DNA of 60,000 nucleotides from assembly GCF_964204645.1 (NCBI RefSeq), contig NC_134034.1:5639414-5699413 (forward strand), read 5' to 3'. Positions 7,224-60,000 of the stretch are shown piece after piece. The DNA is from Tubulanus polymorphus. Lineage: Eukaryota > Nemertea > Palaeonemertea > Tubulaniformes > Tubulanidae. Positions within the stretch are counted from its first letter, which is position 1. Every line of letters begins with the position of its first letter. Under the pieces are notes generated by a model. The model did no database searches, was not told the DNA's origin, and saw only the letters and a program-made list of their open reading frames with translations. Position numbers and translations under genes: made by a program.

Positions 7224-8870
7224 ATGGCTCAGCGACCACGATTAATATGCGGAGCTCATGGAAGGGGCAAAGTCTTAATTTACGAGGGATTCAAATATCA
7301 GTACAATAAGAAACAGAGCGAAACTATGTTGTGGCGATGCTGGAGATCCGAGTGCCGGTCAAATATAAAAACCAATATATTTGATCGCCAGCAAGATAAT
7401 GCAAATATCCAAGTCATCGGACGGCCCGACGCTCATACCCACGGAACAGATGAATTAATAATCGAAAAAGGTGAATTTTCTAACGCAGTGAAAACTACAA
7501 TACGTAACGATCCAACAAAACCAGTCAAAAGGGTATATGACGAAGAAGCTGTACGTATACGCCGAGGCCAGGGTGGTGGAGACCGTGAGATTCCCTCATT
7601 CCCTTCATTGCGATCTGCTATGAAGCGCACAAAAACTCGAAATATGCCTCCCATACCGCATGACATTGAAGACGTTAACGTTGCTGGTGCATGGGCCACT
7701 GCCTGGAATGACCGTCGTTTTCTACTGCACCAGGATAATGATTGGGGCATTTTAATGTTTGCATCTGACCGTAATTTGTGAGTACTGAGAGCGTGCAAAA
7801 CATTATACATGGATGGAACTTTTCGAACGGCACCACGACCATATGTACAAGTTTTTACTGTACTTGGCGATTACCATGGGCGAGTATCGCCCCTTGTTAT
7901 CGCACTAATGGTAAATCGGGAAATTGGCCATTATCGCCAGATTCTACAGGTTCTGAAGCGCGAAGTAAGAAGAGTAAGCAACCATAGGTGGCGCCCAAGG
8001 TTGGTCGTTTGTGATTTCGAACTTGCACTGATTACAGCCGTGGAAACGGAACTACCCAATGCTAATGTCGGCGGTTGTTACTTCCATTTCAACCAAGCTC
8101 TATGGCGCCGTATCAAGACTCTTGGTCTTGTCAGACCGTATAGAGAAAGAAACAAATTTCGGAAGATAGTGCGGAAGGTGATGTCAATCGGATTCTTGCC
8201 TGTTGCGTTACTCCGAAATAACTTTTGTTTCCTTCAAAATAGAAATTCAACTGCAAGAATGATTAGACGTTATCCTGCATTAAATGACTTCTTGTTCTAT
8301 GTAGAGAATACGTACATACAGGGTCAATTTCCAATTCGACTGTTACGAAAGAAACATGTCATGTCGCACAAACAATATTGCTGAAGGTTTGTGGCTTTTT
8401 TTTATAAAATTATGAAACTAAGCTACCCCAGGGTTCTCTGATAAAATAAATTTCCAGGATCGATTTCCAATCTTTTGGGAATGTACGATAGCTGGTCCCA
8501 TAACTTCAATAATTATTCCGACCACCATATTCGCTGGGTAGGTAGTGCGGGGTGTGATCTTGGCTAGATAGAAACTTAAATATTTTCTTTTTGTTGGCAG
8601 TCATGGCAAATTTCCTGAACCCATATAAAATATAGCTCAGCAAACGTGCCCAGTTTCAAAAACCATATATTCATTATCTATAGTATTTCAGCGTTTCACA
8701 GGTCCTGGAATGATAGAGTAGAGGTGAGACACCCGAATTTATGGATTTTCATTCGACATTTGAAAGATCTGCAGGTCCAGACAACTGAAGGCATTTCCCA
8801 GATGAATCGAGGCGGGCAACCGACTGTTCGCCGTCGTAAATGGCGTAACCTCGAAAATCGCCGTAGATAA
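7224..8870 (+). pseudogene. MULE transposase with FLYWCH zinc finger, broken
   Basis: The N-terminus has a FLYWCH-type finger (LWRCWRSECRSN ... DAHTHG, residues 35-75). After a linker, 7800-8130 encodes the MULE catalytic region: YMDGTFRTAP (first Asp), VVCDFELALITAVE (second Asp) and GCYFHFNQALWRRI (CxxH block). An in-frame TGA at 7779-7781 separates the finger from the catalytic part. A second lesion, a frameshift near 8340, shifts FPIRL out of frame with the conserved RTNNIAE (8362-8385). An apparent GT-AG intron (8387-8691) then joins to AFHRSWNDRV. The C-terminus ends RRRKWRNLENRRR. So the protein is recognisable end to end but not translatable. Confidence 0.88.
8387..8691 (+). other. 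Probable intron in MULE transposase
   Basis: Donor gaag|gtttgt and acceptor tagtatttcag|c lie exactly where the conserved TNNIAE...FHRSWN block is interrupted. Removal rejoins the block in frame. The 305-bp insert has no other coding signal. Confidence 0.65.
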
Positions 8871-9713: not shown

Positions 9714-12221
9714 GTTGTGATATTACGACAGTATTTTGGGCACCTGGCCCATGGTCCTAATCTTCGCTGAAAAATACTAATTTTTTTGTTAAACGACCTC
9801 TAAAACTCGTAGTTGTAATATAACAACCGTATAGTGGCGCCGGTTAACGGTAGTAGCATGAACTAACCAGGAAAAGAAAGCTGGAATTTTTCACAAGCCG
9901 GTCACAGAAATTTGGACTTTTGAAGACTGGAATTTAGCAAGATAGTGGTACGTATCATAGTTTTATACCAGTTAATATTGAAATTAAATGTATAAAGAAC
10001 GTTAAGAACGTATTTACAGTAAAAAATTACGCATGACTTGTATGTGAGGGGAGGGCTAAAATCGGTGTTGTAATATTACAACAACAGGAAATTTCAAGTT
10101 CAATTCAATCAAATTTTTGGAATTGGATTTTAATATTTGTAAAGCATTGATTGGTAAATTAAACTATAGTAGTCCATGGTATCATTATTTCAGATAGCAA
10201 ATAAATCAATGAGCCTTGGAAAAATACATCAACTTGGAAAATTGACGGCGATATTGTAAAAAAAAATTTATTCATTTCAACATGTCTGGTAACACCACGA
10301 TTCATTATATTTTGCAGGATGAATATGTCTAGAAGAAGTAAATATAAATCTGTACTTGACGTCCTAGAAGCCCTTGATGATGGTAATGATAGTGAGTTAG
10401 ATGAGGAAAGTGATGATGAATATGGGCCAGAAGCGGGTTTGACACATGATCATTCAGATAGTGCTGACGACGGCGATGATGATGGGTTCGATACCTCAGA
10501 TGATGAGCCCTTGGTTAATTTAGTTCCTCAACCTGGTACCAGTACCCAATCAAAAACCAGTATCATATCGCTGGCGTAAAGGTGCAAGTCTTCAGCTGAC
10601 TGATACAACGTTCACGGATAACAATTTGACACCATCATCGGAATCTGTCGAGACACCATATGAATATTTCAGTCGGTTTATAAACATGCTGGAGGTTGTA
10701 GTGCAGTTTTCGAATGTATATAGTATCCAGAAGAATGGAACTGTAGTTAATTTGACAACCAAAGAACTTGAGCAAGTTTTAGGCATGTATTTACTGATGG
10801 GCCTGGTCAAAATGCCATCTGTCAGAATGTATTGGGAACAGGAGACTCGTTTTGGACCAGTTGCAGATGTAATGGCACGTAGTAGATTTGAGATAATCCT
10901 TCGAATTTTGCATTTTGTTGACAATGAAACTGCAAGTGATCAACAGAAAAAGGATAAAGTATGGAAAATTCGCAACTGGTTGGACGCATTACGACATAAT
11001 TGTCTAAAAGTGAAACCGGAAGAACATAATTCCGTTGATGAAATTATGGTGGCTTCAAGGGGAAATATAGCTCCATACGCCAATACATAAAGAACAAGCC
11101 ACATAAGTGGGGCATAAAGATTTGGGCCAGAACTGGCATATCTGGTATTCTCTATGACTTTGGTATATATCAGGGTGGTGGTGGCACACGTTCAGCGCTT
11201 GGCGTCGGTGGTGATGTGGTGACTAAGCTATGTAAATCACTACCAGAACATAAGAATAACAAAGTTTTCGCCGATAACTATTTCACTGGTTTGGGGCTCA
11301 TTGTTGCATTGCGTTCAATGGGTATACATTTCATTGGTACAATTCGAAAAAACAGATTACCTAATTGCCCACTGCTGTCAGAAAAAGAGATCTTGAAAAA
11401 AGGCAGGGGCTCCTATGATGAGGCTGTGGAGACAAATTCTCAGGTGGTGGTTGTGAGGTGGGCTGATAATAAGGCTGTTACATTGGTGTCATCGTATACC
11501 GGGGTAGAGCCTGTAGATGAGGTGAAACGTTGGGATAAAAGCAAAAACGACTTTGCTATGGTGAAGCGTCCGAACATTGTGATTCCGTCATGGTAGCAGC
11601 AGTCAACGCCTGGCTGCTCTATCGTAGAGACTGTCCTCTTCTTGGCATTAGTTTGAAAGAAGTGATGAATAACAGGCGATTTCAAGTGAAATTGCTAATG
11701 CTCTAATCTGGAAAAATGCGCAAAGAAAAAGAGGTAGGCTACTGGCTGATGAAAAATCCCCCAAACCAGTGAAATTGGTTCGTCGCGGTCCTGTTACCGA
11801 TGTTCAGAAAGATGGATTTGGCCACTGGCCAACAAGGCTCGAAAAAAGAGGACGGTGCGTTCTGTGTAAAAAATGCTACACCGATATTGCCTGTGAGAAA
11901 TGTAATATGCGATTGTTTTAGCAGTGCCAGGAACTGTTTCAAACTGTTTCATGTGTAATCTACTATCGGAATGTCTTGGTGAATACAGTCAACCCCCGAT
12001 ATACGTCCCGGTTGACTGTACGCAAGTTGGTATGATAGAAATCATAAACTGGCATTGAATCTTATGTTTAACAGTTTGTATGTTCCAATATAGTGTCAAC
12101 TTAGCATTTATAATAAATATTGAGGTTTGATTTCTCTGGTATTAGCCTAACAGAAAGTTTTTTAAAAAAAATTTTATTTCATTTTTGTGAACCTCAATGC
12201 CCGCTGTTGCAATTTTACAAC
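9714..12221. repeat. Subterminal 16-bp palindromes of piggyBac copy 1
   Basis: The palindrome GTTGTAATATTACAAC is perfect at 10067-10082. Near-copies occur at 9714-9729, 9812-9827 and 12206-12221. Three are near the left end and one near the right end, outside the coding region. Position and symmetry suggest transposase binding sites, which is inference. Confidence 0.7.
10319..11943 (+). pseudogene. piggyBac transposase, broken and internally deleted
   Basis: It starts MNMSRRSKYKSV with a strongly acidic N-terminus ending SDDEPLVNL. A frameshift near 10560 leads to YRWRKGA... and the block TPYEYFSRFINMLE. The first catalytic Asp lies in SVDEIMVASRG (about 11033). A frameshift near 11070 precedes QYIKNKPHKWGIKIW. 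The second Asp is in FADNYFTG (about 11270). At about 11578 the frame jumps from VKRPNIV to AAVNAWLLYRRD, so the YNxxMGGVD segment with the third Asp has been deleted. The C-terminus retains a cysteine cluster (CVLCKKCYTDIACEKC, 11850-11910), the usual C-terminal zinc-binding domain. It cannot be active. Confidence 0.92.
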
Positions 12222-21789: not shown

Positions 21790-22300
21790 TTTAAATCGTG
21801 GTGGTGTTTTATTATGGGGCTATGGCTTATATTTTGGTTGTAGGTTATTTTCACCTTGCACTTTCTCTCTATTTCCTATTCAACTACGGTACGTATTATT
21901 TGGGACTTGAATACAGTTTATTGTTTCTGTATCAAAAAGATTCTTATACATTGTAAACTAGAGTACAATAATAATATCACAATATCTGTGATAAAAGGAT
22001 TATCATAAGAGCATAATCCCACAATAGATAAATAAATACCTAAAAAGTTAATTATTAGATATTAAAAGTATTTCTTCAGTTTCTTTCTATTAGACTGGAG
22101 AAATGCAATATTTCTTATATTTTGAATGCCCTTTTTAGCTATCAATTCATTTATTGTTGGATTTTACTCTTACTTTTGTTGGATGGGCCTTTGTATGTAC
22201 GATAATCTGAGCTTTGCTTGGTTCCTTCCAAGTCCAGATTTGTCATTCTTTTTGACTCGAAGTCCTTCCAAATTTTAATTTTATGTATTTTCGCACGCAA
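21790..22300. other. HAGH intron, nothing recognised
   Basis: AT-rich with no motif. Confidence 0.3.
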
Positions 22301-22469
22301 GTTTAAAAAAAAAAATATTTTAGGAGGTTGTTATACGCCCTATAATAAGTGTGTATACCAAATATCATCAAAATCCATCAAGATCTTGGGCCCAGGTCTG
22401 TGGGGGTCAAACATGTATACATGTAGTAACTTCAGTAAGACTTATCAGTGTGAATCCAGTCATTCATTC

Positions 22470-25174
22470 ATTGAGCATGTCTCTACTGCAATCTTTAAGA
22501 AAATCCCAGTGCCTACAGTGCCAGGTCCCAGTGAAAATGATGGATCTAATAGCCAAAGAATAGAATCATTTACTGCTACACTAAGTGCAGCGACACAAGA
22601 ACTTGATACGGATATTAGTGTGCCAAATCAGCCTCACGATTTCGATTATCCATACAGACAATATGGACAAAAAAGGGTTGTGAAAAGAAGGTTCAACGTT
22701 GCTTGGTATAAAGACTATCCATGGCTACATTATATCGAGGTGCGGGATGTGGTACTCTGCTACATACGCAGGCGTGCGAAGATTGAAAATAAACTTTCCA
22801 ATGAAAAAATTGACATGGCCTTTATTGAAAAAGGATACTGTAATTGGAAGGAGGCAACGGATGTGTTGAACAAACATCAACAATCGAATTGTCACCAGGA
22901 AGCCATGGAAAGAGTGACCACTCTACCAAAATCCACGATAGATGTTGGTTAGATGCTCAGCCAGACTCACTCCAAGGAGAAAATTAAAAATCGTAGGATA
23001 ATCACAAAGATATTTGAAAATGTGCGATTTTTGTCTAGTGATAGTTGACTAGGGTTAATCAAATAATGATATAAATATTAATAATGTCTGGGAAACAAAT
23101 AACAAATAAAAATAATGATTTAATGTGAAGAGTTGGTTTTAACGAAGAAAAAAAGAAATGTAAATAGCTTAGTCTAAGGGAATAATTCAGAAAACATGAT
23201 TCAGAAAATTGGTATATAGTGTTGGTGGTTGGAAATATATTTCTAGTTGGAGAGTGGTTGATGGAGGTTGCAGATTCTGTAGAAACCATACTAAATTTGG
23301 TAGGGAGAGATCACGTGGTTGAAACTTGGTAGAGGAAGAGAGTAGTTAGGTTGGGAAACGAGAAGAGAGAAGGGAGTTCGAATTTTGGCAGCCACCAGTA
23401 CAATTGTTAGTAGATCCCATGAGATTACCTAGTTGTTAGCTTATTTTTTGGAGAAGTTCATCTTCAGAGGCAATCGATCACTAGGCAAGGTTTAGCGCTT
23501 ATAGGCCACAATGAGGAAAATGGACATTTGCTGCAATTGCTCAAATTGCACGTCAGTAATGACCAATCCATCATGAAATGGCTCGAAAAAAAGACAAATA
23601 AATACACTAGCCACGATATTCAAAGTGAGATTTTGCACATTCTGGCTATGGATATTGTGCGAAGAACCACCGAGTCTGTAAAAAAATCGCAATTCTTCAC
23701 AGTTATGATCGATGAAGCCGCAGACACCGCCAATCGGGAGCAAGTTACATTTTTTGTTCGTTGGGTTGATGCTGACTTCAGAATTAATGAAGACGTCATT
23801 GGATTTTACGAATTTGGTGACATATCATCAAATACCCTCACTGCCGTTGTTGTTGACGTTCTTCAGCGCATGAATGTAACTATTACGAAACATCGCGGGC
23901 AATGTTATGATGGTGCCAGTAACATGCGAGGAAAGAAAAGTGGCCTTGCTGCTCAGATTTTAGCCCTTGAACCGAGGGCACTGTTTAATCATTGTTATGG
24001 ACATTCGTTGAACCTGGCAGTGAACGATGCAATCAAGGAGGTACAAAACAACAAAGGATGCCCTAGGCATCACTCACGAAATTTGCAAATTGGTTAAACA
24101 TTCACCACGCAGAGAAGGCATATTCAATCAGTTAAAGCAGGAAATTGAATCAGATTCGGCTGGTTTACGAGTGCTCTGTCCTACCAGATGGACAGTACGT
24201 GCTGGATCGCTTGGTAGTGTACGCGATAATTATGATGTCCTACAACAACTGTGGGAAGCGACATATGTTAAGGAAACTGATGTCAAGGGTAATTGGGGTT
24301 CATGCGCAAATGAGGCGCAACTTTCGATTATTGTTGGGGAGTTTCGTTAGGTCGTCTGATCTTGAAACATGCCGACCTGAGTAAAAGTCTCCAAAACCCA
24401 GAATTGACAGCATCAGCTGGACAGGAATTAGCCAAATTAACAGTTAAAACGCTCGAGAAAATGCGAAACGATCGTGACTTTGATTTATTCTATGACAAAG
24501 TGTTAGGTGAAACACCTTCTCGTGACGTTGGTGATCCACAGTTACCAAGAAAAAGCAGGGCACCCGCACGCTATGAAGATGGTCTAGCTGTTCCGGAATT
24601 CCCAACCACTCCTCGTGATCTGTACCGAAGACAATATTACGATGTCACTGACCGGGTCACTGCTGCCATAAAAGGTAGATTCGACCAGGATGGTTATCAT
24701 CAGTACAGTCATCTGCAAGACCTGCTGATAGCCACATGTAATCAGAGAGATTATAAAGTTCATTTATCTGCTGTAACTGATTTTTACACGTCCGACTTTG
24801 ATAAGGATCTCCTCGAAACACAGCTTAGTACCCTAGCAGTGAAATTTGAACATGTTGTATCAGTAGTACTCGGAGAAATTATAGGTCACTTAGAGAAGTT
24901 GCAAAAATGTGAACGTGCATTCTTCTCAGAAATATGTACTGTAATTAACTTAATAAAAGTACTGCCAGCTACCAATGCGACATCAAAAAGGTCATTCCCT
25001 GCGTTGAGAAGGTTGAAAAATTATTTGAGGTCTACTACAACTCAAATGAGATTAAATGACATCATGGTCATGCATGTCCACAAGGATATTGCAGATACAA
25101 TCAACATAATCAATTGTGTGAATCAATTTGTTGGCCAGTCCGAACATCGACTCAGCGTGTTTGGGAGGAATTAA
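22470..25174 (+). pseudogene. ZMYM1-like hAT transposase, broken
   Basis: The N-terminus carries a TTF-type finger block (FNVAWYKDYPWLHYIEVRD ... KGYCNWKEATDVLNKHQQSN, 22695-22900) in which the second Cys of the C-x2-C pair is replaced. A TAG at 22950-22952 follows. After HSKEKIKNRR...RFLS the gene is split by a 442-bp insertion. It resumes RQGLALIGHNEENG, then MIDEAADTANREQ (DUF4371-type region), QCYDGASNMRGKKSG and FNHCYGHSLNLAVNDA. Frameshifts occur near 24050 and 24340. It ends with ATSKRSFPALRRLKNYLRS (25000-25040), the hAT C-terminal dimerisation block. Such genes are hAT-derived. This copy is dead. Confidence 0.9.
23039..23480. mobile_element. 442-bp insertion with CTAG duplication inside the hAT gene
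   Basis: CTAG at 23035-23038 and 23481-23484 flank the insert. The host frame (RFLS then RQGLA) is continuous if the insert and one CTAG are removed. Termini are weakly inverted (tgatagttg versus tgatcgattg). AG-rich interior, no coding. A GT-AG intron reading is possible but would lose conserved residues. Confidence 0.65.
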
Positions 25175-42122: not shown

Positions 42123-43523
42123 TTAATAGTTATCCATAGCAATTTTCGCTATTCTTTCGCGTGCTTTAATTGCCGCCTTGCGATTCGGTCGTTCGTTGCT
42201 TGGCGGCGATTCAATTCGTTCGATTTCTTTAGTTTCGAAGCAAGACTTATCCACGTTTAGCTCCAGTGGATATAGTTTCCGAATAGCTCGGCAGGTGGTT
42301 CCGTGCACAGTTTTTACGTGAGCCGCTCGGATATAGCCATCCTCCGAACTCTTCAGTACAGATTTGATAATACCTAATTTCCAGTGGTGACGTGGTATAT
42401 CTTTATCATGTATTATAACCACGTCACCAGTTTTCACGGTGTTAGCTTTCGCGCCATTTTTCTTAATTTCGTTTGCGTGACGTTCACGCAGTACTGCGAG
42501 GTACTCATTTTTGAAGCGCTTCTGAAAGTGTCGAATTATTTGCGCTCGGTGAAACGCCATTTTTTGAAGAGACTGGCTAACTTTACCTTGACCGAATTCT
42601 GGGTCGAAAATTTCGGTCTCATCGATACTTTCACACGGAATCAATTCGACTTCGCGACCGAACAGTAACGAGTTCGGTGTTATGGGTTTGATATCATCGA
42701 TCTCTGACGGGATGACGGTTAAGGGGCGGTTATTTATCGTAGCTTGTATTTCTTTAATCAAGGTTTGTAATTCGTCTAATGATACTTGTGCATGCGCTAG
42801 AACCTTTTTAATAGCGGTTTTGACGATGCCGATGCATCTTTCATGCACCCCCGCCATCCATGGCGCTTGGACCGGAGTATATTTAAACTTCATTCTTTTA
42901 TCCGCGTAGATTTTTTGTGCGTTGTCGGATGAAGCGATTTCATACAGACGTTTTATCTCAGCCTCCCCCGCGATGAAGGTTTTCGCGTTGTCCGAGTATA
43001 TAATATTCGGAGCCGAATACGAACTACAGAAGCATCGGAATGCCCTGATGTAAGAATCAACGGTTGCGTCTGTAACTATCTCGAGATGAATTGCTCGAGT
43101 CGTACAGCATGTGAAAAGACAAATATAAACTTTATTTTCGCCGCGGACGTATAAATGGCCAGTAAAGTCGATGGCCGTAGCGGTGAATGGTTTTAGCTCA
43201 TTGAGCCTGAAACTGGGTAATGGTGGTGGTGCTAGATATGGGCGACCGTACAATCTTTTGCATGTCACGCATTTCCTCAGTATTTTCTTTGCTAGAGATC
43301 TAAGAGATGTGATCCAGAAACGTTTGCGGACTTTGTTGACTGTCATTCCTGTGCCGTAGTGAAATACCGATTCGTGTGCATCCCTGACAATTAATGACGC
43401 TAGGTACGACTGGTTTGGGATGAGAATGGGTTCTTTCCGTGCTTGGGTTATTTCAGCATTTCTGAGCCTGCCAGCACATCTCAATGTTCCTTCCGCATTG
43501 CGATAGACCCCTAATTGTCGCAC
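42123..43523 (-). CDS. BEL copy 1 pol: integrase and C-terminal domain
   Basis: About 466 codons in the same frame as the upstream pol but separated from it by a TGA. Begins RQLGVYRNAEGTLRCAGRL, the usual lead-in to the integrase zinc-binding domain, here H-x4-H (HESVFH, about residues 50-55) and C-x2-C (CVTC, 85-88). Catalytic triad Asp in AIDFTGH (119), Asp in YSDNAKTF (178) and Glu in GVHERCIG (228). The C-terminal DUF5641-type domain (TGDVVIIHDKD ... HWKLGII) covers about 355-450. There is no ATG at the frame's 5' edge, as expected for a polyprotein segment. Confidence 0.93.
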   Translation of the reverse strand: MRQLGVYRNAEGTLRCAGRLRNAEITQARKEPILIPNQSYLASLIVRDAHESVFHYGTGMTVNKVRKRFWITSLRSLAKKILRKCVTCKRLYGRPYLAPPPLPSFRLNELKPFTATAIDFTGHLYVRGENKVYICLFTCCTTRAIHLEIVTDATVDSYIRAFRCFCSSYSAPNIIYSDNAKTFIAGEAEIKRLYEIASSDNAQKIYADKRMKFKYTPVQAPWMAGVHERCIGIVKTAIKKVLAHAQVSLDELQTLIKEIQATINNRPLTVIPSEIDDIKPITPNSLLFGREVELIPCESIDETEIFDPEFGQGKVSQSLQKMAFHRAQIIRHFQKRFKNEYLAVLRERHANEIKKNGAKANTVKTGDVVIIHDKDIPRHHWKLGIIKSVLKSSEDGYIRAAHVKTVHGTTCRAIRKLYPLELNVDKSCFETKEIERIESPPSNERPNRKAAIKARERIAKIAMDNY

Positions 43524-43583
43524 TATAGTCGGACACTTTCGATGTCTTGTGGGTGAAGTAAGAGTGGACTTCCGGATATTCCT

Positions 43584-46500
43584 TCAGTTGGACACTTTGT
43601 ATCCAGATGCCTCTCGTATATCGTCTGCTGAAATGATGTTTTTAGATTTTAACCCTTTTCTGAAGGCTCGTTTGACCAACGCGGTGACCCGTAATAGTCT
43701 TCGATAGTCAGTGAAGTCCTGAACCTGTATGATCTGGTCTATACCAGTAATTTCCGCCTGACCGGTCCTTGTCTGGAATTCATTTTCAATCTCTAGGCTA
43801 GCGACGAGTATGACCGAGGTGTCTGGTTGGTCGTCGGGAGGTGGTTCGTCTTGGTTTTCCATCCACTCTGGGCCAGTAATCCACATTGATCTCATGAGCT
43901 CGTCATATGTGGCCCCTCTCGAAAGGATGTCTGCTGGATTTAGCTTCGACGGTACGTGCTTCCACTCATGCACATTGCAGAGCTGTTTAATCGCTGTAAC
44001 TCGATTTTTTACGAACACTTTAAGTTCCTTTTCTGATTTCAACCAGTACAGGGCTACAGCTGAGTCTGTGAAATAATGATTGTCAATGCCTGCGTATTCC
44101 TTCTCGTAGATTCTTCTGATTGAATCGGCGTATTTCGCTGCCATAACCATGCCCTCTAATTCAAGTTTTGGGACTGTCCACCCGGCCTTTGCTTTAGAGA
44201 TGACCTTGTTTTTCGAGCCTATGAGACGTATTTTGTTGCCTTGCTTTCCATATATAACACAGCCTACCGCACTATTTGGGGCTGCGTCGCAAAATACCAT
44301 AAGTTTAATCGGTGATTCGTTGTCGAATCCGAGCCACCTCGGAAATTCGATCTGATGAGTCTGATTTAGATTGTTGTGAATGATGCTCCATTCCTTTAGC
44401 TCGCTTTGGTCTAATTCTTGATCCCACTCTTTGGACGACTGCCAGAGTTTGTTGATAAACACCTTAGCAGTAACTGTAACTGGAGCAACCAGACCTAGTG
44501 GGTCAAATACTGCCGCTGTGCGTGATGCGACCTTTCGCTTTGTTATGGTGGCTTCAGTCTGTGTCATTGATTTCCTGGCTATAGTTATGATGTCATTATC
44601 TGCATTCCAGGTCATTCCTAGCAGTGGCACTGATGTTGTATCTCTCACATGGATATCTCGGTTGGTTGCCTTTTTCATTAGGAGTTGAGAGTTAGATGCC
44701 CACTGCCTCAGTCTGAAGTTACCCCGTTGCATTATCTCCATAGCTTCTTCGAAGTATTCAGATACTTGGTCTTCTTTGCTTAATGTACTGAGTAGATTGT
44801 CAACGTAGAGTTTCATACCCATGTCCTGTGCCACCCACGAGTCTCGGTGGGCGTCAAAGTGTTTCGACAGGACAGCCGCCAGCGTGAATGGGCTCGCCGT
44901 AGATCCAAATATGACGGTATTATGTTGGTATGGGACGATGCCCTTCGATGGATCGTTATCCTTATACCAAAGGAAACTTACGTATCGTCTATCTTTCTCC
45001 GCTAGTTGAACTGACAAAAAGGCTCGGGCGATGTCGGCTGACATAGCGACTACACCCGTTCTGAACTGCATGATCAGTGAGGGCAGATCCACCAGCATAT
45101 TGGGCCCTTGGTATAAACAGTCGTTCAGTGAGGGTGAACCTGCGCTCGCGTCAAATACTATTCTCAGTGGAGTTGTTGGGCTGTCTTTCATGATGAAGAA
45201 GTGTGGGATGTAATAACAACCCTCTTCCAACAAGGCTTGGTCTGGGTTTGGGATTTCCGAGACAGTATTCTTCTCAATATGCTCTTGCATCACCTTGGTG
45301 TATGCGCCCATAAGTTCAAGGCGTTGTAGACGATGAGTTACTTGTTTTAATCTGTACCTACTCTGGGTTAGATTGTTTTGAAGTTCTGAGTGGTCTTCCT
45401 TCCATGGTAGCGGTGCGTAGTAGCAGTTATCCTTGTACTGGATTTTCTTTTTATAATCCTCTAAGAATATATTATCCTCTATGCATCCTTGATCTTCGAA
45501 ATGGCCAGGGAATTCGGCGGTATTATTCTGCAGGAATTCGTTGAGTATCGTGTTACTAAATTTTTGGTTAGCATCCCCAATCCCTAGCATATCAGAAACT
45601 GCGGTAAGCGTGAATGCATGTGGATTGTGGTCATCTTTGTACAACGGACCATAAACAAAACAACCGAGATTAGAAAATTGGATGATTGGCCCACCGGGGA
45701 TATTTTCCGTACGGTTTTCGAGGAATAAATATAGGTGACCGCAACCGATTAATATATCCACGGTGAATAACTCAGCTTCGAAATTATCCGCGAGGTGGTC
45801 TAATCTAGATATTTCCGGAAACTCAAGACATTCGGCCCATCGTTTGAGATATATGGGCTTAACGATTTCATTCGATATGGCGACATCGATATGTATCATA
45901 CCTTCGGTGGTAACGATGCCTACGGAAGCGATGTCATACACGCGTTTTGAAGTATGACCCCCAAAACCATTTACGGTCAACGATCGTTGGTAGCGCGGTT
46001 TTAACCTGAGAGCGGTGGCTATATCCTTGCGGATGTAACTGAGCATGGAACCGTGGTCGAGAAGGAGATTTGCATTTTTAAACTTATGACCATTATTTTC
46101 CAGATTAATTTGGCCCGTTTCCAACAAAACTATATCGCTGGGAGCAACGGCAGCCTGAATCGCATTGCTTTCACAAGTATATTCCGATTGATTTTCGCAT
46201 GTATTTTCCGACTGATTTTCGCATGTATATTCCGTTGTTTGATTCGACAAACTTTCACATGTTTCGCTCACAATCTCGTGATTGTGGCCTCGATTCGCAT
46301 TTGGTTCGATTAATCCAATGTTTGTGTTTTTGTTTTGTATCGCTGCGCATCCAGTCGTAGTAGTTAAATTATCTCTGTGTAGACTTGTGTGGTGTTGCCT
46401 GTTGCACTTCATACATCTACCCGAATTCCGGAAATTTATTACTGGATGGTTCGGTTTCAGGCAATTAATACACAGTTGCCGCTCTTCAGTTTTCGCTTTT

Positions 46501-46868
46501 CGATTTTCGAGATTTAGATGACATCTGGTAGGTCCATGTTCTCCGTCGCAGAATGGACACTGGTATCTTCGCTGGTTTCCGACAAAGGATGTAGTTGTCA
46601 TTCTCGGTCGCTGTTGGTTAGACGATGTTGATGTGATTTCTCCAATGTTTTCAAGTTGTTCTTCGAATTTCTTAATAAATTTATCGAGTTCAAAATCACC
46701 TGCTTGGCCACATGTGCCCATCTTTTCGAGAAAGACTCTCGGGATTTTCTTTTCCATTGATGTGACAATAAATGAAGCACATGCGTTGACATCTACGCCC
46801 AGGTGTTGTAAAGATCGAATGTTGGCGTTGGCTTGATTGACGAATTGTGATAGAGACGCAAAGTTCAT
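43584..46868 (-). CDS. BEL copy 1 gag C-terminus, protease, reverse transcriptase, RNase H
   Basis: 1094 codons from an internal ATG, in frame with the gag segment upstream. Domains in order: two zinc knuckles (CPFCDGEHGPTRCH about 104-117; CINCLKPNHP and CMKCNRQHH about 133-165); aspartic protease with LLLDHGSMLSY, the active Asp about residue 271, with His where Ser/Thr is usual; reverse transcriptase with FDASAGSPSLNDCLYQGPN, MSADIARAFL and YVDN (688-691) in place of YVDD; RNase H/A17 region (FCDAAPNSAVGC about 855; PKLELEGMV; TDSAVALYWLKS). It ends at a TGA (43584-43586). The next roughly 60 bases read sensibly only in another frame (a WIQSVQ block), so I infer two compensating one-base changes there. 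Confidence 0.95.
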   Translation of the reverse strand: MNFASLSQFVNQANANIRSLQHLGVDVNACASFIVTSMEKKIPRVFLEKMGTCGQAGDFELDKFIKKFEEQLENIGEITSTSSNQQRPRMTTTSFVGNQRRYQCPFCDGEHGPTRCHLNLENRKAKTEERQLCINCLKPNHPVINFRNSGRCMKCNRQHHTSLHRDNLTTTTGCAAIQNKNTNIGLIEPNANRGHNHEIVSETCESLSNQTTEYTCENQSENTCENQSEYTCESNAIQAAVAPSDIVLLETGQINLENNGHKFKNANLLLDHGSMLSYIRKDIATALRLKPRYQRSLTVNGFGGHTSKRVYDIASVGIVTTEGMIHIDVAISNEIVKPIYLKRWAECLEFPEISRLDHLADNFEAELFTVDILIGCGHLYLFLENRTENIPGGPIIQFSNLGCFVYGPLYKDDHNPHAFTLTAVSDMLGIGDANQKFSNTILNEFLQNNTAEFPGHFEDQGCIEDNIFLEDYKKKIQYKDNCYYAPLPWKEDHSELQNNLTQSRYRLKQVTHRLQRLELMGAYTKVMQEHIEKNTVSEIPNPDQALLEEGCYYIPHFFIMKDSPTTPLRIVFDASAGSPSLNDCLYQGPNMLVDLPSLIMQFRTGVVAMSADIARAFLSVQLAEKDRRYVSFLWYKDNDPSKGIVPYQHNTVIFGSTASPFTLAAVLSKHFDAHRDSWVAQDMGMKLYVDNLLSTLSKEDQVSEYFEEAMEIMQRGNFRLRQWASNSQLLMKKATNRDIHVRDTTSVPLLGMTWNADNDIITIARKSMTQTEATITKRKVASRTAAVFDPLGLVAPVTVTAKVFINKLWQSSKEWDQELDQSELKEWSIIHNNLNQTHQIEFPRWLGFDNESPIKLMVFCDAAPNSAVGCVIYGKQGNKIRLIGSKNKVISKAKAGWTVPKLELEGMVMAAKYADSIRRIYEKEYAGIDNHYFTDSAVALYWLKSEKELKVFVKNRVTAIKQLCNVHEWKHVPSKLNPADILSRGATYDELMRSMWITGPEWMENQDEPPPDDQPDTSVILVASLEIENEFQTRTGQAEITGIDQIIQVQDFTDYRRLLRVTALVKRAFRKGLKSKNIISADDIREASGYKVSN

Positions 46869-56737: not shown

Positions 56738-58110
56738 CAACGAATTGCAGCACGAGAACGAAGGCTGAAGCTTAAGGTAGAGTGTAATAAAAAGAAACCG
56801 AACAAAGAATCGCTTAAAAAACGGGAACACATTAAAATACAAACACGCAATAGGAATCGTCGTCTTCGGGCAAAATGGAAAGAGGAAGAAAAAAGCTTAA
56901 GCTCTTCAGTTAAAGAAACTGGTGGTGGACTTCGTATTAAGTTAACGCCTAAGACGAGAGGCCAGGTGGTTGACAAACGTGCCGCATGGCGAGAACGAAA
57001 GCGTAAAGAAAGAGCCAACTGGTCCGGACAAAAACGTCGACGCGTGAGCGCAATTCCCAGACAAAAAATGCATGTAGCACTGGTGGTGACGAGATCGGCC
57101 CATATAATTCAAAGCAATCACTCTACAATGCAACACACAAAGCCAATAAAGCTATGCCCAAATCTCCCTGAAAATATGCTGTTATTGTGAAAAAATTGTT
57201 TGAAAAATCAAATTCCTCCACACTTCCATCGAAATCCGATCAATTTCCCAATGACATGAAAAACTGCAGTAAACACGTAGTTAAATCAGTTGCATTGCAG
57301 TTTATCGAGAATAGAAAGAGAGTTAGTATCAGACGTCTCAGTAAAGAAACTGGGCTCAATCGTCAAACTATTACCAAAGCCCAAAAAGTGGGCCTCACTC
57401 GAAAACCACGGCGCTCTAAACTTAACTTGGCCCAAATAAACACAATTCGTGCTTTATACATGCGGGAGGATATATCCTCTATACGTTCGGAGAAAAGGTT
57501 TGCCAACAAACACGGGCCAGGCTACCTTATGACAAGCTCTCTAAAAGCAGCATATGGTATATTTCAGAAAGAAAACCCTCAGATACTAATCAGTTTACAA
57601 AGTTCACTCTGTTGAGGCCCAGAAACGTTCGTCTTCTCTCATCCAACCACGGTGACACTATCCGTGCCTTGTATAGCAATATATCAACTGACGAGATAAT
57701 CACGTGGAATCACTGGGAAAAACACGAGGATTCTAATGGCAGATTAATATATTCTCTAATTACAAAGCGTGGCATATTAGCCGAGATCTTGTCTGAATTT
57801 GAAATTGATCTTCAGAATAGCGGTGGTGTTACATTTGTACGACATGTCTTTACTGCTCGCTGGCAATCATATCAAAATCGAAACCTCCGCGAAAAATTTA
57901 CCCGATAATTGGGCATTGTTTATCGTAGATTTCGCAAAGAATAGAGAAATTAGTTATCAAAACGAAATCAAAGGCACGTATTTCGGAAAAAGACAAGCTC
58001 ATTCCAATAACGCCAAACCAATTAATTTATGGAGAAAGGGTTGTCCCGAGCCGTGGAGCCACCATACAACTTCCAATATACACAAATTTGCGTATATTGG
58101 AAACCAAGCT
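56738..58110 (+). pseudogene. Multi-copy uncharacterised family, possibly a transposase; broken
   Basis: Read across frames: a very basic N-terminus (ARERRLKLKVECNKKKPNKE; KRAAWRERKRKERANWSGQK); KANKAMPKSP, TGA (57169-57171), KYAVIVKKLFEKSNSS; a helix-turn-helix (VSIRRLSKETGLNRQTITKA, 57325-57385); NKHGPGYLMTSSLKAAYGIF; FQKENPQILI; RPRNVRLLS; WNHWEKHEDSNGR; RHVFTARWQ; and VDFAKNREISYQNEIKGTYF (57925-57985). I recognise this order from multi-copy proteins of cnidarians, echinoderms, molluscs and fish that have no agreed function. The CxxC cluster usually following RPRNVRLLS is missing, and the part after the DFxxNR block is lost. At least two frameshifts and one stop. Confidence 0.6.
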
Positions 58111-58286
58111 TCTCACATGCGCAAGCGAAGTACAGTACTAAGTACCGCAATATAAATACGGTGTGCGGATTACACCGAACTCAGCGGATAGAGACGACCG
58201 GCACACCGTGTCCCAAATGTACAAGATGATGAAATTCTAATTTATTTTAAATATCCGGATTGTTTTAAATGAATTAAAGCAAAAAG

Positions 58287-59880
58287 ATGTTTTCTACGTT
58301 GTCAGTTGACTCACCGATATCAGAAAGCAACGAACATAACGACGATTCAGATGTGTTTAACGACACGGGTAAGAAAGTAACTCATAAAACAACAACTATG
58401 CTATTTCAACCTTATGTACACAGCGACAATAAAACGAATAGCGAATTTTCGTGTTGCATTTCCTATATACATTACAATATACATTTCCTATGTAAATTAC
58501 AATCCCTTTTCGGGATCTCGATTTTATAGACCAGCAAAGCTCTGAAGAATCGGACTGTGAGACGGATCCACCAACTACCGAACCGAAAAAAGGTGTGTAA
58601 CTGAAAATTAAGCCGAAATATTTTTCGCGTTATGGCCTATGTTGATCACAGGCGATATATAAATGGATTTTTTTAATAATCAATGATTTCATAGACGAGC
58701 GAAACGATAAAAAAGCCAGCTGTGAATCGGACTGTGAGACGGATCCACCAACTACCGAACCGAAAAAAGGAGTGTAACTGAAAATTAAGCCGAAATATTT
58801 TTCGCGTTATGGCCTATGTTGATCACAGGCGATATATAAATGGATTTTTTTAATAATCAATGATTTCATAGACGAGCGAAACGATAAAAAAGCCAGCTGT
58901 GAATCGGACTGTGAGACGGATCCACCAACTACCGAACCGAAAAAAGGTGTGTAACTGAAAATTAAGCCAAAATATTTTTCGCGTTATGGCCTATGTTGAT
59001 CACAGGCGATATATATATGGATTTTTTTAATTCTCAATGATTTCATAGACGAGCGAAACGATAAAAAAGCCAGCTGTGAATCGGACTGTGAGACGGATCC
59101 ACCAACTACCGAACCGAAAAAAGGTGTGTAACTGAAAATAAGCCGAAATATTTTTCGCGTTATGGCCTATGTTGATCACAGGCGATGTATATATGGATTT
59201 TTTAATTCTCAATGATTTCATAGACGAGCGAAACGATAAAAAAGCCGGCTGTGAATCGGACTGTGATACGGATCCACCAACTACCGAACCGAAAAAAGGT
59301 ATGTAACTGAAAATTAAGCCGAAATATTTTTCGCGTTATGGCCTATGCTGATCACAGGCGATATATATATAGGCCTATATGGATTTTTTAATTCTCAATG
59401 ATTTCATAGACGAGCGAAACGATAAAAAAGCCAGCTGTGAATCGGACTGTGAGACGGATCCAACACAAACAAAAGACCGTAAGGGACAATTCCAAGGGCA
59501 TGGACTGGGTCAATTGCGCTTCTGAAATTACAAGCAAAATCAAATCTGGTTTCAATTGCAGGCGATCAATTTCCAAATTCGAAGAAGAATTCGAAAAGAA
59601 AATCCACCGGCCATGGACTACCGACGTTCTCTCGACCAAAAAACAGATCGGAAGCAAACGATCAGGTTAGCAAAAGATCGGAATTATATCTAATGTATCT
59701 AATGAAATGGCATTATACCTTCATTATCTAGTTTCTGTAACATGTGAACACTTCCTCCAGGTCACCTTGATATGGAATAGATCATATGAAGTCGAGGTTC
59801 CAGTGGCCAAGGTAGGAACAGTTATTGTGACGGATGTTTCTCTCAGGACGTTACGTAATAAGATGTGGTTGGATGATGCT
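58287..59880 (+). CDS. Ulp1/SENP-like protease gene with repeated mini-exons (5' part)
   Basis: A spliced model with an open frame: exon 1 58287-58368 (ATG, MFSTLSVDSPISESNEHNDD), exon 2 58530-58592, exon 3 58695-58771, exon 4 58872-58946, exon 5 59049-59123, exon 6 59224-59298, exon 7 59410-59665, exon 8 59732-59880. Exons 2-7 derive from one repeated exon. Exons 1-3 join in phase 1 and give acidic peptide (SDCETDPPTTEPKK). Exon 3 has lost its usual donor and the next GT lengthens it to 77 nt, moving exons 4-7 to phase 0 where they encode basic peptide (AVNRTVRRIHQLPNRKK). Exon 7 continues KGMDWVNCASEITSKIKSGF. Exon 8 ends TDVSLRTLRNKMWLDDA before donor gtaagt, resembling the WLNDxxIN start of the C48 protease domain that cuts SUMO-like tags. 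The catalytic His, Asp and Cys are beyond the window. The protease call rests on one short motif. Confidence 0.55.
58530..59484 (+). repeat. Tandem exon-intron cassette array, unit about 177 bp
   Basis: Six copies of 'gactgtgagacggatcca' at intervals of about 165-186 bp, each with acceptor gatttcatag, a 75-nt exon (63 in copy 1) and an intron carrying 'aaatatttttcgcgttatgg' and 'gttgatcacaggcgatat'. Units differ by only a few bases, so the array is young. The last copy diverges right after ggatcca into unique coding sequence. Confidence 0.95.
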
Positions 59881-60000
59881 GTAAGTTTCGTGCAAGTGTT
59901 ATCCCTCAGATATTTCTATGTTACACTTTCATTTCAAAGTAATGAACTAATATGCTGCATGCATCTGAAATACTGATATCTCAATAAATTTGTATGAACA

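Follow-up and report, generated by a model that had tools for sequence, protein, structure and literature searches.

A probable recent tandem exon duplication, kept in one reading frame, in a DNA transposon gene of the ribbon worm Tubulanus polymorphus

Introduction

Tandem multiplication of small exons has been described in several settings. In the leucine-rich repeat (LRR) genes of Tetrahymena, 90-bp exons bordered by phase 2 introns form arrays that are attributed to unequal crossing over between exons (PMC6564038), and in human duplicated genes minisatellite-like units in exons and at exon-intron borders are described as altering the coding sequence, most of them with preservation of the frame (PMC2812944). 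Two groups of DNA transposon are also relevant here. Zisupton, a member of the Kyakuja-Dileera-Zisupton (KDZ) superfamily, is characterized by 8-bp target duplications and terminal inverted repeats (PMC12730594), and most of the Ginger1 families tabulated in PMC2836005 carry a C-terminal Ulp1 or OTU domain, one having Ulp1 plus PHD. Here we describe an array of small exons close to the end of a 60,000-nucleotide stretch of the Tubulanus polymorphus genome (NC_134034.1, positions 5,639,414 to 5,699,413, forward strand; hereafter the window). The array lies in a gene of a DNA transposon, further copies of which are found on two other contigs, C4 and C9. An initial annotation proposed that the repeated exon is read in two different frames along the gene. 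We consider it very probable that the array is instead a recent tandem exon duplication within an internally shortened ribbon-worm DNA transposon, that it grew by exchange between two similar exons (A and B), and that a donor change now leads to skipping of exon 3, a single frame being kept.

The tandem exon array

Tandem Repeats Finder places the array at 58547-59462, with a period of 177, 5.1 copies and 96% matches, which bears out the exon-plus-intron cassette of about 177 bp in the initial annotation. The 177-bp unit is an exon together with an intron. The last bases of the five array acceptors are 58694, 58871, 59048, 59223 and 59409, and the successive unit spacings are 177, 177, 177, 175 and 186. 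Six exons lie in the array region, all on the plus strand and all beginning and ending in phase 1: exon 2, or A (58530..58592, 63 nt); exon 3 (58695..58769, 75 nt), which has a TAG acceptor; repeat exons of 75 nt at 58872..58946, 59049..59123 and 59224..59298; and the last repeat exon, B (59410..59478, 69 nt), which is single copy in the C9 element. Exons 3 to 5 have the same sequence, from which exon 6 departs at 2 of 75 positions. The region thus consists of adjacent homologous exons, each with an intron and with symmetric phase, as is typical of tandem exon duplication. Since the length of every exon here is divisible by three and both its borders are in phase 1, the frame holds with or without exon 3, and the earlier proposal that gain or skipping of 75-nt copies would not disrupt the product was correct.

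Reading frame of the gene

The gene opens with a putative exon 1 containing an ATG (58287..58368, plus strand, 82 nt, ending in phase 1). It had been argued that, unless the frame shifts within the array, translation meets a TGA near 59521. This is true only if positions 59479..59561 are retained, and these have the appearance of an overlooked plus-strand intron of 83 nt (GTAAGG...TTGCAG): the GTAAGG donor at 59479, which is implied by the NCBI protein for the C9 copy, pairs with the acceptor TGGTTTCAATTGCAG, whose last base is 59561. With 59479-59561 spliced out the TGA is removed, and all exons fall in one frame. The exons that follow, also on the plus strand, are 59562..59665 (104 nt) and 59761..59880 (120 nt); the latter leads to the Ulp1/C48 domain, the Pfam match itself starting in exons beyond the end of the window.

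With exon 3 read as 75 nt, the one-frame model is 1452 nt long, encodes 483 amino acids and is open to the end; without exon 3 it is 1377 nt long and likewise open. All 15 of its introns have AG at the 3' end and 14 of the 15 have GT at the 5' end, the exception being the one after exon 3. Nine exons downstream of B, seven of them past the end of the window, keep the frame. The model encodes an Ulp1/C48 protease, whose Pfam C48 match passes the curated cut-off (E 1.9e-10), and a PHD-type finger, whose match does not (E 3e-4; 21.1 bits, cut-off 24). A peptide such as SDCETDPP would come from this frame, and TSETIKKPAVNR from the other. Judged by its predicted splicing pattern, the gene of the window copy most likely reads in a single frame, and a frame switch is not needed.

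Comparison with the copy on contig C9 supports this model. That copy is 90.6-95.1% identical to the window copy over four long matching pieces, and NCBI has a gene model for it (LOC141910516, Tubulanus polymorphus). In the LOC141910516 protein, a SAP-like exon (SAP match 20.7 bits, cut-off 23.9) is joined to the single repeat exon, which is read in the same frame as in the one-frame model and ends at the donor equal to 59478 (TQTKD). The order of the protein is DERNDKKASCESDCEADPTQTKD, DQFPNSKK...ANDQ and VTLIW, and the ANDQ/VTLIW join corresponds to the acceptor 59761.

The coding sequences of the window copy, on contig C10, and of the C9 copy were compared over eight of the ten exons from B onward; exons 60926-61052 and 61128-61230 are omitted, being incompletely covered by the aligned pieces where C9 is interrupted, as are three gap columns in exon 61336-61391. 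In the single frame, the proportion of synonymous differences (pS) is 0.071 (11/154.5 sites) and that of nonsynonymous differences (pN) is 0.0195 (12/616.5 sites; Fisher p 0.002). The other two frames give no synonymous excess in this comparison, and contain 13 and 24 stop-bearing codon pairs, against one, the final stop, in the single frame. The one-frame model is therefore under purifying selection between the copies, and this selection may predate the window copy. The two frames are not both open and conserved among copies: the frame that reads through 59479-59561 has a TGA in C9, at the site where the spliced frame reads R, and only the spliced frame has a synonymous excess.

Origin of the array and fate of exon 3

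Exons A and B share 24 nt (GAATCGGACTGTGAGACGGATCCA), and this shared tract coincides with the edges of the array. Each inner exon is a hybrid that starts like B and finishes like A. A structure of this kind, with hybrid exons and edges on the shared tract, fits unequal exchange between A and B. We infer that the phase-1 exons A (58530-58592) and B (59410-59478), being alike and formerly about 177 bp apart, were the left and right parents of the array, and that unequal exchange or slippage between their shared tracts would have generated the hybrid exons, each with its intron. Every unit gained in this way would add one more 75-nt exon flanked by phase-1 introns, leaving the frame into the Ulp1/C48 domain and the PHD-type finger constant at any copy number.

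The donor following exon 3 (after 58769) reads GAGTGT, as the initial annotation had recognized, the sister units having GTGTGT or GTATGT. Of 102 positions compared between introns 2 and 3, only one differs, the donor base itself, so that the change from GT to GA arose after the last duplication. The mutated donor would then cause the spliceosome to skip one redundant exon, exon 3, with the frame unchanged. Such skipping is most likely, being the simplest outcome of the mutation.

The host transposon and its copies

The array is carried by a DNA transposon of 5183 bp on the plus strand, of which 58032..60000 lies in the window and the remainder extends to 63214 on the window scale. The element has inverted repeats at both ends (GAGAAAGGG...CTATTATTC); the strong part of the left one (58040..58099, plus strand) agrees with the right end at 95% over 60 nt and has matches at the other copies. 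Identical 8-bp flanks, AATTTATG, stand on the two sides, the left one at 58024..58031. The C4 copy, of 10,890 bp, has AACATGGC on both sides, and an 8-bp target duplication is thus present in both of the copies for which both ends were located; the left end of the C9 copy was not found. Terminal inverted repeats combined with a target site duplication identify a cut-and-paste DNA transposon. Upstream of the gene there is a TATA-box-like sequence, TATAAATA (58151..58158, plus strand), which is common to the C4 copy and may act as a promoter. In the gene, an intron contains a dispersed repeat of about 210 bp (60679-60887 on the window scale; L003 3093-3301); among the 40 candidates scored, out of 1302 at first look, most matches are confined to 60679-60887, indicating many copies.

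Excision of the element in silico restores a BEL/Pao-like integrase frame, with 45% identity over 53 aa to an integrase open reading frame (ORF) at 42123-43523. The insertion target is a broken relic of a similar Pao kind, at about 53.9-58.0 kb on the plus strand. The integrase ORF adjoins an ORF with a Pao retrotransposon peptidase, and together the Pao-type ORFs at 42123-46868 of the window, on the minus strand, show the Pao peptidase (3.7e-37), an integrase zinc-binding domain, and weak reverse transcriptase and rve matches.

At least three copies of the transposon were located (the window copy on C10, and those on C4 and C9), counts from genome searches being lower bounds, and among these the array is present only in the window copy. 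A search with the 177-bp unit gave seven matches, six in the window array and one a single exon in C9. In its 3' part the C4 copy shares 99.1-99.6% identity with the window copy; it has no match to 58250-60695, and hence no array. In the C9 copy a (TA)n tract precedes the one repeat exon, and SAP-like and CxC4-like matches, both just below their curated cut-offs, lie upstream. The window copy is without these SAP-like and CxC4-like exons, and it therefore looks like an internally shortened derivative. A more distant relative on contig C2 (C2:17941133-17941962, L074) combines Ulp1 and PHD in the same order, its PHD exon being 63% identical; the 4 kb examined there contain neither a tandem repeat nor anything that matches the repeat exon. 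In public protein searches a single protein (P0001) was matched, both by the protease half and by the array half, and a 335-aa ORF of the C9 copy matched no public protein at E 0.001.

It is worth adding that every located copy has its own tandem expansion, the 177-bp exon units being that of the window copy. The C4 copy contains a 42-bp minisatellite of 38.6 copies, which runs up to the end of the piece (L050 3969-5600 reversed). The C9 copy contains (TA)116 upstream of its single repeat exon (L004 5277-5509) and, lying between matching 3' parts, 47 copies of a 64-bp repeat (L052 2211-5216). A perfect trinucleotide tract, (GAC)86, lies upstream of the C9 copy (L004 2052-2310).

Alternative explanations

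Several observations weigh against a recent duplication that is read in one frame with exon 3 skipped. Exon 1 is without a counterpart in the other located copies, on C4 and C9. The repeat exons have fewer variable columns than the introns (2/75 versus 11/111), and this difference is not significant (p 0.08). Exon 3 contains two GTs that could also serve as donors (each agreeing with the donor consensus at 4/9 positions), giving exons of 27 and 39 nt with the frame kept. LOC141910516 is a partial predicted model: it stops short of the catalytic cysteine and matches C48 only weakly (E 0.099). Its entry into the exon that follows B lies 6 nt further upstream (LAGDQF versus RDQF), in the same frame, at an earlier AG acceptor that is present in C9 and absent from the window copy. 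Finally, the window copy may be untranscribed: protein searches, within their length limits, retrieved no public entry that contains the array.

The last of these points would also be expected if the array were wreckage in a dead, never-transcribed transposon copy. This is a serious possibility, if a somewhat doubtful one; it concerns expression, and is compatible with tandem exon duplication. Few transposon copies were located, and the window copy is without the upstream exons that precede the same exons in C9. Against this, the frame is fully open with only one donor of the 15 altered, and selection is visible between the copies, though its possible earlier date limits the force of this argument.

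Mutually exclusive or variable inclusion of the repeated exons, which would yield isoforms that differ in length, is improbable. Any subset of them would keep the frame, each being 3n and phase 1-1, but given how nearly identical exons 3 to 6 are, an exclusive choice would alter almost nothing.

The two-frame reading of the initial annotation is very unlikely. In that model exon 3 is spliced at the GT two bases on, becoming 77 nt, and all later copies pass into the second frame, giving acidic and then basic repeats. The contrast in charge is real (each unit has 8 acidic and 5 basic residues in one frame, and 1 acidic and 8 basic in the other), and the exon is indeed open in the second frame. 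However, 36% of random 75-mers with the exon's base composition are open in one given frame, so that the second open frame is no signal. It is also correct that the shifted model stays open through the C48-like exon: with read-through of 59479-59561 and the acceptor 59732, it meets no stop in the window copy between the ATG and the end of the PHD-like exon. The same read-through frame is, however, interrupted in C9, it retains an intron that the NCBI C9 model removes, and it is not the frame with the synonymous excess. If the 77-nt exon is followed by the usual downstream splicing, an early stop results (RSP*). The alternative donor, GGA|GTGTAA, agrees with the consensus at 2/9 positions, where the 14 GT donors in the one-frame model reach 5-8, and a further GT two bases beyond the alternative one scores 5/9 and yields a 79-nt exon. 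The shifted model combines three unusual choices: a 2/9 donor, a retained intron with a GTAAGG donor, and the acceptor 59732 instead of 59761. The frame switch is rejected as the main reading by the canonical, 77-nt and read-through models, by the C9 copy and by the NCBI protein for C9, and the shift of later copies is unsupported, as the one-frame model is open and agrees with the NCBI C9 model, with pS/pN and with the Ulp1/PHD exons.

A weaker form of the same idea, in which the donor mutation makes the copy bistable, is hardly to be expected either. Skipping would give the normal protease-PHD protein. If the GT two bases downstream were sometimes used instead and the later intron were kept, the later repeats of the resulting isoform would be read in another frame, so that one array would supply both acidic and basic linkers. 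The window copy is open for both isoforms (exon 3 skipped, and 77-nt with read-through). An assembly artefact, with the repeat count inflated or collapsed, is the least probable explanation: tandem repeats are prone to mis-assembly, but the units carry their own differences, their introns differing by substitutions and indels and therefore forming no obvious assembly duplicate, their spacing varies, and contig C10 is 14.3 Mb long.

Other transposable elements in the window

Transposase remnants are found at 7224-8384 (a FLYWCH finger and a MULE transposase domain) and at 10626-11090 (DDE_Tnp_1_7). The ORFs at 22218-25174 we take by eye to be hAT-like; of two that were scanned, one gave a sub-threshold zinc-finger match, and the other had no Pfam match at E 0.001.

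Discussion

The tandem exon duplication described here is real but fairly ordinary. Its value is as a clean, recent case of a coding mini-exon multiplying by what would be exchange between look-alike exons, in which the junctions, the hybrid exons and the order of events are still legible. It also illustrates that a frame switch should not be accepted simply because a reading frame is open: once one overlooked 83-nt intron is recognized, no switch is required. The presence of the array in a low-copy transposon gene with a SUMO-type protease is a small lead on how such elements vary. Among the literature matches listed, no title or beginning of an abstract describes a comparable array in a transposon gene, which is weak evidence.

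With regard to the transposon, the 8-bp target duplication and terminal inverted repeats resemble those described for KDZ/Zisupton (PMC12730594). The KDZ-associated CxC4 cysteine cluster has a sub-threshold match upstream in the C9 copy only (E 1.8e-5; 25 bits, cut-off 26.9), in an ORF that probably lies inside the element, and the window transposon is a candidate member of KDZ/Zisupton. The combination of Ulp1 and PHD, the latter sub-threshold here, is shared with one Ginger1 family (PMC2836005). However, Ginger1 elements are described with 4-bp CCGG/CCGT duplications, unlike the 8-bp AATTTATG and AACATGGC found here, which speaks against membership of Ginger1.

With regard to the array, there is a likeness to the internal tandem repeats of human genes in that gene structure is altered, in host gene families there and in a transposon gene here (PMC2812944). 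A close parallel is provided by the Tetrahymena LRR genes as described in PMC6564038, which likewise have exons that are multiples of three with introns of the same phase on both sides, and a copy number explained by unequal crossing over. The Tubulanus locus differs from them in consisting of a single small array, made of 75-nt exons and carried by one transposon copy, in which the hybrid exons are still recognisable and the product is a short charged stretch and not a domain repeat.
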